Origin: Xanthobacter agilis
GTDB lineage: Bacteria > Pseudomonadota > Alphaproteobacteria > Rhizobiales > Xanthobacteraceae
Assembly: GCF_021730435.1 (NCBI RefSeq)
Contig: NZ_JABWGX010000022.1
Span: forward strand, 1 to 64,000
Length of the DNA: 64,000 nt
Reading direction: 5' to 3'
Shown here: positions 44,879 through 46,960 of the stretch, piece after piece
Numbering within the stretch: the first letter of the stretch is position 1
How the letters are laid out: each line of letters starts with the position of its first letter
The notes under the pieces: model-generated
What the model was told of the DNA's origin: nothing
What the model saw: the letters and a program-made list of their open reading frames with translations, nothing else
The model's database searches: none
Made by a program: the position numbers and the translations under genes

Positions 44879-45043
44879 AAGCAAGCTCCCAGGCGTTGAC
44901 GCCCGCCTCATCTAGCCGCCAATCGGAGCAGGATTGCGACAGCCCGCGCCATCCACAGCCGCGCGCAGCGCCCGCAGAGACGAGCGACGCCCCCCCGATG
45001 CGGGCAGGCGCGACAAACCGGGGCCATCTTGTGAAGGAGGGGT

Positions 45044-45139
45044 GGGAGGCTGGACGAAGACCCGAGACCGGGCTCGTTGGGGCTGCTTCCTTCCGGACCT
45101 GACCCAGTTGGCGAGTGACTCGTCCACCGCCAACCTCCC
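45044..45139 (-). ncRNA. ffs: Signal recognition particle RNA, small bacterial (4.5S) type
   Basis: On the minus strand the highly conserved domain IV sequence GGTCAGGTCCGGAAGGAAGC lies within 45081-45104, which is the Ffh-binding loop. The proposed ends GGGAGG (45139-45134) and CCTCCC (45049-45044) pair, giving a 96-nt rod. A TTGCAT and a CATATA 17 bases apart just upstream are a plausible promoter. The RNA works with Ffh in cotranslational membrane targeting. It lies upstream of dnaX in the same direction. Confidence 0.92.
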
Positions 45140-45246
45140 AAGGGCTATATGGCAGGGGTGGGGGCGGGATGCAAGGGGGCATAGGAAGGCCCCGCGCGGT
45201 CCTATCTAGAGCGCTTTAGGGTATGCAGATAATCAGACAGCCACAT

Positions 45247-45768
45247 TTAATCGCTTTCAATAGTTTTATCAATATCTTTTAAAATAGACGGCTTAGTCTC
45301 ATCCATCGCGGCCGAATAGCGCTCCATTTGTATCTTCATTAAGGATCCCGGGAGTCCAAAAGAAGCAATAAACACAAAAGTCGCGAGCGCCAAAAATACA
45401 GATTCAACCCACATCCTCGCACACTCAAAATTGTCAGGTATGAGAAATGTAGATAATGCAACACCTAATGTTAATAGATACATAAAAAAAAGTATCTTTT
45501 GTCGCAATAGTTTTCTCTCAATTGTATTTTTCATCATTTGCAGTTCACGCCAGTCCTTAGCCTGACGAAGCGTTGGCTCGGATATTAGAGTTATAAGAGC
45601 TATTAGAAATCCAGCTAAGATAGAAAATATAGTTACAACTGTATTAACTGCGTCTTTATTTTTAGAGACCATCGGCTGAAAAAAATATCCGACCGCACAG
45701 GAAATAACAAGTGCGACAATTATTTTTGCCACACGCCCCCATTCTATTTCAATATTTCTCCTGTACAT
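45247..45768 (-). CDS. Four-helix membrane protein of an AT-rich two-gene module
   Basis: A 173-residue protein with four predicted membrane helices at about 13-30, 43-63, 92-110 and 119-142 (for example IIVALVISCAVGYFF and IFSILAGFLIALITLIS). A basic stretch (KNTIERKLLRQK) joins helices 2 and 3, and the C-terminus is charged. No known family was recognised. It starts five bases after the stop of the 312-residue partner, so the two are one operon. Codon use is AT-rich (Lys AAA, Ile ATA, Leu TTA), unlike every neighbour, a sign of transfer. A membrane effector role is an inference. Confidence 0.8.
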   Translation of the reverse strand: MYRRNIEIEWGRVAKIIVALVISCAVGYFFQPMVSKNKDAVNTVVTIFSILAGFLIALITLISEPTLRQAKDWRELQMMKNTIERKLLRQKILFFMYLLTLGVALSTFLIPDNFECARMWVESVFLALATFVFIASFGLPGSLMKIQMERYSAAMDETKPSILKDIDKTIESD

Positions 45769-45773
45769 AGCAG

Positions 45774-46712
45774 TTACACCTCTAGCACGCCGCTCTCTTC
45801 AAGCTCTCTTATGTATTGGATCATAGAATCCCACGCCTGAGATACATCTATATAATTTGCCTGAGCCTCTATCCGCACCGTTTTTCTGATGGACATTTCG
45901 GATGGCGTTATTCTTGTTTCGTTATCCCGCAGATGTATCGTAAAATCATCGGCTTCTTCATCCTCAGATACCTTTCCCGCCAATAGATCTAAAGAATGAC
46001 AAACGGCCGATAGGTCGCCTCCTTTTACATTAATCGTAAGTTTTACAGTTCCCTTCTCAGATTTCCTCAACTGAGCCAAATCTGCATCCCTGGCAGTCAG
46101 GGCTGTGATTGTGGAGCCCATATAGCGTCTAAAGCTGCTCCAAATTCCATGGCCATCACAATCATCTGAAATAGATTCAGCGGTAGCCGAAGCGATATCA
46201 ATTTTTAGATCAATACTTTTAACTCCAATTCTTTCAATGAGAGAAATTCGGTTAGGGTTCCCAATTCTTGCTAACTCAAACTTCCTTGCGTGTTCAGGCA
46301 TTTCAGCTTTAAGAAAAAGATTTGATAAGTAATTACGTAGGGCTCCGCCATTGCGCCCACAATCAAGGCAAACGACGTGGTTTTTACGTATCAGCGCCAA
46401 AAAACTAGAATTCAGGAAATTTTCGTCCGCCTCAGGCTGTCGCTCCCCCAGATCAATTTCATTGGCAGGTACCATCGGTATCGTTCCTACGCCTTGGCGA
46501 TCAACATAGCGAACGCAGTGGACCGCGAACCCTCCCTGCCCATCGTCACGGCATCGCGCTCCCGCCACAGCCACTCCATCGTCGCGAACTATGGCTCGCG
46601 CGACTTGACTCGAAAAGCGAGCCCATGCAGCGCGAACTAGCTCTTCAAGGTTCTGGTCCTCTGCGAGCCAACGCGCCCGACGGTACTCCAGCGTTTTGCT
46701 AACCTGCGGCAC
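45774..46712 (-). CDS. Soluble partner protein of the AT-rich module, unknown family
   Basis: A 312-residue protein without membrane helices or signal peptide. Around residue 115 it has HVVCLDCGRNGGALRNYLSN; the middle (KSIDLKIDIASATAESI) and the C-terminal half (TVKLTINVKGGDLSAVCHSL) look like alternating strands and helices. I did not recognise a family. The first 75-80 codons are GC-rich like the host, while the rest is AT-rich, so composition breaks inside the gene near 46470. Arrangement as a soluble protein plus small membrane protein resembles two-gene phage-defence modules, but homology is not claimed. Confidence 0.75.
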   Translation of the reverse strand: MPQVSKTLEYRRARWLAEDQNLEELVRAAWARFSSQVARAIVRDDGVAVAGARCRDDGQGGFAVHCVRYVDRQGVGTIPMVPANEIDLGERQPEADENFLNSSFLALIRKNHVVCLDCGRNGGALRNYLSNLFLKAEMPEHARKFELARIGNPNRISLIERIGVKSIDLKIDIASATAESISDDCDGHGIWSSFRRYMGSTITALTARDADLAQLRKSEKGTVKLTINVKGGDLSAVCHSLDLLAGKVSEDEEADDFTIHLRDNETRITPSEMSIRKTVRIEAQANYIDVSQAWDSMIQYIRELEESGVLEV

Positions 46713-46789
46713 TTCGAACGCCCCTTAAAGAAACTAATGACGCACAATGACTGCGGCTCAGCAATTCAAGCAAGGGTTGCCCACGGTGC

Positions 46790-46802
46790 AATCAACAATT
46801 TA
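46790..46802 (+). promoter_or_regulatory. IHF-binding site upstream of hupS
   Basis: AATCAACAATTTA fits the IHF consensus WATCAANNNNTTR at every defined position. It lies 160 bases before the hupS sigma54 promoter, in the only AT-rich part of this upstream region. IHF bends DNA so that an enhancer-bound activator can reach the polymerase. Confidence 0.65.
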
Positions 46803-46805
46803 TCA

Positions 46806-46826
46806 CTCCGAGCCACGACTTCGGAG
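46806..46826 (+). promoter_or_regulatory. Inverted repeat, candidate HoxA enhancer site
   Basis: CTCCGA-N9-TCGGAG is a perfect dyad next to the IHF site and 135 bases before the -24 element. A further CTCGGAG half-site lies at 46854-46860. Position and symmetry fit an activator-binding site; that HoxA is the protein is inferred from the cluster. Confidence 0.45.
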
Positions 46827-46960
46827 ATTTCCCTGCCCCGCCTTCGCGGATGTCTCGGAGGCAACCCCCTTTCCACCTCCCCTGGAAAGCGCCTTCCCGG
46901 CATCCACCGCGCTGGGCGCCGTCCGCCGCTAACCCACTGATATCCCTCACGCCCTCCCCC

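Follow-up and report, generated by a model that had tools for sequence, protein, structure and literature searches.

A probable RexAB-type gene pair at an AT-rich chromosomal slot between ffs and hupS

Introduction

The 64,000-nt stretch of Xanthobacter agilis DNA analysed here (the window) carries two adjacent genes between ffs and the hydrogenase genes. A preliminary reading of the same DNA, made without database searches (the sequence-only reading), had picked them out as the best candidate for an undescribed system, possibly one of phage defence. The locus raises two questions: what kind of system the genes form, and why they lie at this position.

Results

Organization and Composition of the Gene Pair

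A soluble protein of 312 aa and a protein of 173 aa with four membrane helices had been predicted at the locus, and the open reading frames (ORFs), hydropathy and structure models all agree with that description (Table 1). According to the ORF list, the soluble gene comes first and the membrane gene follows on the same strand after a gap of 5 nt. Plausible ribosome-binding sequences, AAGGGG and AGAGGTG, were seen by eye ahead of both starts. Six overlapping hydropathy hits in the 173-aa protein resolve into four membrane regions, with which the structure model is concordant; the 312-aa protein showed no membrane regions by hydropathy. Applied to each member of the membrane family, the hydropathy analysis was noisy and returned 3 to 12 hits.

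The AT-rich island described earlier was evident in the base composition. Positions 45247-46712 have a GC-content of 44.3%, compared with a mean of 68.1% (sd 3.3, minimum 59.6%) across 1192 overlapping windows of equal size in the rest of the 64-kb window, which served as the baseline. The GC3 values were 43.5% for the soluble gene and 33.3% for the membrane gene. The ORF of the hydrogenase small subunit begins at about 47.1 kb (by reading), beyond the pair.

Neither protein had been recognised in the sequence-only reading, and the curated libraries gave the same picture: every Pfam and NCBIfam match of either window protein was below the curated cut-off. PADLOC (2023) returned a single weak match for the membrane protein (E 0.23), and searches of PDB sequences with both family profiles yielded nothing credible. 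In PHROGs, the soluble protein matched two phage families of unknown function, phrog_26543 over residues 7-232 (E 3.7e-13) and phrog_3482 over residues 222-305 (E 7e-4).

Table 1. Features of the window and contents of the corresponding slot in relatives of the host genus.
Feature	Location	Strand	Basis or remark
Soluble 312-aa protein, RexA-like role (proposed DNA-binding sensor)	45774..46712	-	ORF, GTG start, homologue alignments, structure model
173-aa four-helix membrane protein, RexB-like role (proposed membrane effector)	45247..45768	-	ORF, ATG start, hydropathy, structure model
ffs, small signal recognition particle RNA, slot flank	45041..45139	-	Rfam RF00169, 56.6 bits
AT-rich cargo of ffs-hupS slot, approximate	45180..46862		End of conserved flanks in relatives (45179; 46860-46863)
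Slot insert: FRG domain	L163
Slot insert: 469-aa P-loop ATPase and overlapping 186-aa hydrophobic protein	L164:1188-3154
Slot insert: DUF4917	L165		AbiH match sub-threshold
Slot insert: reverse transcriptase	L166
Slot insert: overlapping genes, 306-aa soluble and 174-aa membrane	L167:361-1802; L171:685-2126		L171 by reading
Slot insert: P-loop protein	L168
Slot insert: TIR-like protein	L169		CAP12 TIR match just sub-threshold
Slot insert: AAA_15	L170

Linkage and Distribution of the Pair

Relatives were collected by alignment-based scans with the membrane protein, which found 31 loci of the pair family in IMG/VR and, with one peptide motif, at least 43 loci among 84,980 species genomes. A single-sequence scan of IMG/VR gave no confirmed relative; the alignments did reach relatives. 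The alignments hold 65 soluble and 72 membrane sequences, with plasmid-record loci, near-duplicates and short pieces left out.

Of the loci that have 950 nt or more of DNA ahead of the membrane gene, 29 of 30 on viral contigs and 36 of 37 on genome contigs carry a full soluble gene immediately before it (the remaining one viral and six genome loci are at contig starts). These counts are partly redundant: L019/L072, L021/L073, L023/L076, L028/L078 and L081/L082, for example, are the same stretch or near-copies, judging from matching lengths and identities. The two exceptions, L024 (1963-2704) and L069 (821-1761), carry the membrane gene, with the soluble gene reduced to a C-terminal piece. The pairing of soluble and membrane protein is nearly obligate, and its recurrence in dozens of loci makes it more than a chance arrangement. 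A co-occurrence survey had been proposed at the outset, with homologues that are always single as the contrary outcome; the homologues are not always single. In the genome loci, where starts were chosen by script, spacing ranges from -13 to +22 nt and is often a 4-nt overlap, so that the earlier term "overlap-spaced" suits many homologues and not the window pair itself.

Record titles of the genome loci name Alpha-, Gamma- and some Betaproteobacteria together with three Delta/Desulfo- records. By tblastn, three plasmid records of Ketogulonicigenium encode both proteins, at 54% and 68% identity, and a Sinorhizobium plasmid and a Shinella record each carry both as well. In pYP12, the one Ketogulonicigenium record examined, the pair is flanked on one side by type I restriction-modification genes. 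The Shinella pair is closely followed on the same strand by a 245-aa ORF containing paired cysteines (L005:6471-7208, by reading), which may be a third gene.

Closer to the host, the distribution was sparse. The soluble protein was found in two of 101 genomes (the own genome and its relatives), namely the own genome and one of the same family, and was absent from the 13 other genomes of the host genus; the pair was therefore probably acquired horizontally. A class-level scan found the pair family in three of 385 genomes, the own one included, after weak matches were dropped. The matches in G292, G308 and G445 were rejected as spurious, as the ORFs of L041 and L043 look unrelated and L042 combines a weak score with an internal stop. 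A tblastn search of phage GenBank records with the soluble protein gave no match at E <= 0.01.

Gene neighbourhoods were tallied with a simple longest-ORF scheme of gene calling. Among the 25 top families listed for the viral loci (123 neighbouring ORFs, 26 loci), the unnamed phrog_35074 was the commonest, with 10 ORFs. The commonest named PHROGs were portal, head protease, minor head protein, endolysin and transcriptional regulator (5 each), followed by repressor and CII-like families (4 each), and Mu-like proteins appeared among the Pfam families. This tally fits carriage of the pair as prophage cargo. Around the genome loci (132 ORFs, 38 loci), no family occurred more than three times. The pair is carried by prophages, plasmids and chromosomes. 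From ORF sizes and family tallies, it seems to lie amid Mu-like head genes (portal, MuF-like, protease) in L027, L028, L029, L035 and L036.

The ffs-hupS Slot in the Host Genus

Across the host genus (14 genomes, the own one included), the region has conserved flanks, with ffs at one end and hupS at the other. Nine relatives were resolved, each having hupS and a copy of ffs together on a single contig stretch (G006, G007, G009 and G011 are outside the count). In all nine, an insert of 969-2846 bp and 37-52% GC separates the final ffs copy from the hupS flank. The nine inserts (L163-L171) hold eight different contents, four of which reach a Pfam cut-off (Table 1). A right-border motif (CCCCCTTTCCACC) was shared by the own genome and each of the nine relatives, and a left-border motif like GATGCAAGGGGG in the own genome and eight of the nine. 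No integrase was seen in the listed slot inserts of the relatives, and no empty ffs-hupS site was found among the genus genomes. The proposal of a foreign module at an integration hot spot beside ffs is supported by these AT-rich inserts of changing content.

Two of the eight slot contents match solved defence proteins by sequence, in keeping with the suggested role in phage defence. The reverse transcriptase of L166 matched UG15 (E 6.4e-25), AbiK (6.8e-16) and Drt3b (2.7e-12), its best solved match being an unnamed reverse transcriptase (1.3e-55). By whole-sequence E-value, L170 matched both a nuclease of the OLD family (6e-7) and Gabija GajA (from 2.1e-6), with no single stretch passing. The proteins of L165 and L169 had no solved-structure match. 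A link of FRG and DUF4917 to defence has weak support. The soluble-plus-membrane pair of L167 showed no hhalign relation to the window pair family, compared as single sequences, and no Pfam match above cut-off.

Structure Models and Fold Matches

The models were confident, with a mean pLDDT of 89.5 for the soluble protein (65-sequence alignment) and 87.3 for the membrane protein (72-sequence alignment). Lambda RexA supplied the two best matches of the soluble model among 350,542 PDB chains, 8twq_A and 8twq_B (E 6.7e-3 and 8.0e-3, probability 0.93 and 0.91). The alignment is full-length and the match borderline, with a TM-score of 0.32-0.37 and an rmsd of about 19 A; no PDB fold match reached E <= 0.001.

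In the viral library, five unnamed phage proteins matched the soluble model at E-values between 8e-12 and 6.4e-6, and rank 12 (E 0.2) was held by an RdgC of a phage; RexA has been reported as similar to RdgC (PMC11077077). The membrane model had no viral match at E <= 0.001. Its lowest E-value, 0.053, belonged to a protein of phage ctylc9, which also gives the top viral match of the soluble model. The top TM-score among its best 50 viral matches (0.63/0.66) was that of a 165-aa Sbash protein at rank 11 (E 0.51). Sbash gp31 is 165 aa long and is the only CDS of such length among 76 of the 89 Sbash features; from this length we infer that the matched protein is gp31.

Comparison with Lambda, Sbash and CarolAnn Rex Systems

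Several broad features of RexAB-type systems are present in the window pair: a four-helix partner, soluble-then-membrane order, a common strand and tight spacing. Lambda rexA-rexB likewise encodes a soluble and then a four-helix membrane protein on one strand (279 and 144 aa), with 15 nt between the genes. The same layout is found in gp30-gp31 of the mycobacteriophage Sbash, a tested Rex-like defence pair (PMC6426596), and gp44/gp43 of the Gordonia phage CarolAnn form a further Rex-type pair, again a soluble and then a four-helix membrane protein (PMC6426606). Both of these phages have hosts among the Actinobacteria, and their soluble proteins are longer (372 and 370 aa, respectively) and show no hhalign relation to the 312-aa protein. 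In lambda, the cI repressor gene lies beside rexAB, whereas no immunity repressor gene, expected from lambda and CarolAnn although not from Sbash, was found next to the window pair.

Sequence comparison did not place the pair with lambda. None of the 65 soluble proteins matched the RexA Pfam family (PF15969) at E <= 0.01, the window soluble protein did not match the PADLOC RexA profile at E <= 1, and RexB (PF15968/PADLOC) was absent from the Pfam and PADLOC matches of the window membrane protein at E <= 1; the lambda controls did match. RexB was also absent from the 25 listed of 36 weak families for the 72 membrane proteins. Against lambda RexA, four RexA homologues, lambda RexB and the soluble and membrane proteins of Sbash and CarolAnn, hhalign gave at most 1.04% with Rex alignments that are shallow (1, 2 or 4 sequences); the alignment with the Sbash/CarolAnn membrane proteins was collinear over 70 columns despite the low probability. 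Because neither the RexA/RexB profiles nor hhalign gave a match, the window pair is, as judged from sequence, not a member of the lambda RexA and RexB families.

A Distant Branch and the P. putida RexABpp System

Longer relatives (L111-L115) came from a profile scan of the genus of one Pseudomonas genome, in which eight of 398 genomes matched and one was dropped; a viral scan added 16 further loci of this distant branch. G844/L116 was rejected as a member, its ORFs reading like a transporter. The soluble families of the window type and the distant branch are homologous over 304 columns (hhalign 99.15%, E 3.8e-19). For their membrane partners hhalign gave 64% (E 6.5e-5), and these are perhaps homologous too. 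Between the distant branch and lambda RexA, hhalign gave at most 1.04% and so no link.

Neighbours of the distant-branch pair were identified by eye, by reading, in nine loci, six of which have a repressor-like neighbour. A repressor-like gene is directly upstream in L114, L129 and L132, and the C-terminal part of a repressor in L115; this direct arrangement is the lambda cI-rexA-rexB order. In L112 and L127, an HTH gene is followed by two genes and then the pair, which resembles the repressor, two genes and rexAB of P. putida RexABpp (PMC12894663). No repressor-like neighbour was seen in the other three loci (L111, L113 and L120).

RexABpp (PP_5643-PP_5644) lies on the cryptic prophage P1 of P. 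putida and has been studied experimentally. By description it and the window pair are alike, each with a RexA-like soluble and a four-helix membrane protein. The RexABpp paper (PMC12894663) states that phage protection requires both genes, that RexApp binds DNA, and that overproducing RexApp arrests growth and damages the membrane in a way that depends on RexBpp; two-hybrid tests detected no RexApp-RexBpp binding. It also gives a DALI Z of 8.8 for PP_5643 against 8TWQ. RexBpp was sought among the analysed ORFs through seven published residue positions, and the best agreement, four of seven, occurred in unrelated ORFs.

Discussion

The layout, the top fold match, phage carriage, the repressor neighbours in most of the distant-branch loci examined and the defence-type slot mates, taken together, make it probable that the window pair is a RexAB-type abortive-infection pair housed in a chromosomal defence slot. 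The gene pair, its linkage, the predicted folds, the phage-borne relatives and the slot are computed observations; the steps of sensing DNA, activating the membrane partner, damaging the membrane and excluding the phage would follow by analogy with the Rex systems of lambda, Sbash, CarolAnn and P. putida. The soluble protein, in the RexA role, would sense DNA intermediates and, once activated, would trigger the co-translated four-helix protein in the RexB role. The latter would oligomerise and permeabilise the inner membrane, growth would stop, and the phage could not multiply. Such a pair would move on prophages, plasmids and chromosomes, and in the host would occupy the ffs-hupS slot where relatives hold other modules. 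The expectation of an undescribed system stands for the sequence family, which is unnamed in the libraries searched, and not for its kind, since Rex-type two-component exclusion is known.

The same layout would also serve a different two-gene defence logic, in which the membrane protein keeps a toxic soluble partner in check until infection, or in which the soluble protein responds to some other signal. Restraint has been proposed for a Rex-like pair, Butters gp30/gp31 (PMC12894663 and PMC7542560), and sequence profiles give no link of the pair family to lambda Rex. However, the top fold match is RexA, and in published tests of Rex-type pairs the effector was more often the membrane protein (PMC12894663). 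We consider this logic unlikely.

Less probable still, and in our view quite improbable, is a prophage-derived pair that serves the phage, for example by modulating the lysis-lysogeny switch, and persists here as a remnant. Prophage carriage and the repressor-like neighbours of the distant branch agree with this, and in lambda the CI-Cro switch is likewise biased by RexA (PMC11077077). Against it, the pair also occurs outside viral contigs with varied neighbours, the slot is common to defence-type genes, and both ORFs are intact here.

In Kiwa, kwaA precedes kwaB. The likeness to Kiwa raised in the sequence-only reading, four-helix KwaA and soluble KwaB, takes in similar protein sizes and goes no further, and a Kiwa-like system is very improbable: neither window protein has a PADLOC Kiwa match at E <= 1, none of the 65 soluble proteins has a KwaB-type Pfam domain at E <= 0.01, the best 50 PDB matches listed for the soluble model include RexA at the top and no Kiwa protein, and the soluble-then-membrane order is that of lambda and the opposite of Kiwa.

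If the RexAB-type reading is extended to the whole family, two statements of novelty may be made jointly, and we hold them tentatively, as somewhat short of an even chance. The first would be an unnamed, large Rex-type branch that ranges across the Alpha-, Beta- and Gammaproteobacteria as well as some Desulfo- lineages, goes unrecognised in the searched libraries and often lies outside prophages. The second would be a genus-wide, integrase-free defence slot upstream of ffs, by the hydrogenase genes, with interchanging compact anti-phage modules: the Rex-like pair, a reverse transcriptase, an OLD-type ATPase, FRG, TIR-like and DUF4917 proteins, an ATPase with a membrane protein, and a second soluble-plus-membrane pair. 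These modules are perhaps swapped via recombination in the conserved flanks. Neither the pair family nor an ffs defence slot was reported among the literature matches listed; most subscription papers are beyond this search, and absence is not proof. By the count of a 2026 paper, no more than five RexAB-like systems have been described (PMC12894663).

Should the family be of Rex type, it would add dozens more loci to a decades-old question, namely what a RexA-like protein senses and how it triggers its membrane partner. With 65 soluble and 72 membrane sequences aligned, mutagenesis can be guided by conservation. If it is confirmed, the ffs-hupS slot would be a simple site at which to mine defence genes, with one compact candidate per resolved relative. 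The L167/L171 and L164 pairs already look like unnamed two-gene systems, the ATPase and 186-aa protein of L164 being another candidate two-gene system in its own right. Some relatives also have another, more divergent copy of the ffs region at or near the slot (L164:928-1054, L165:912-1037, L171:489-616 and L172:23-120).
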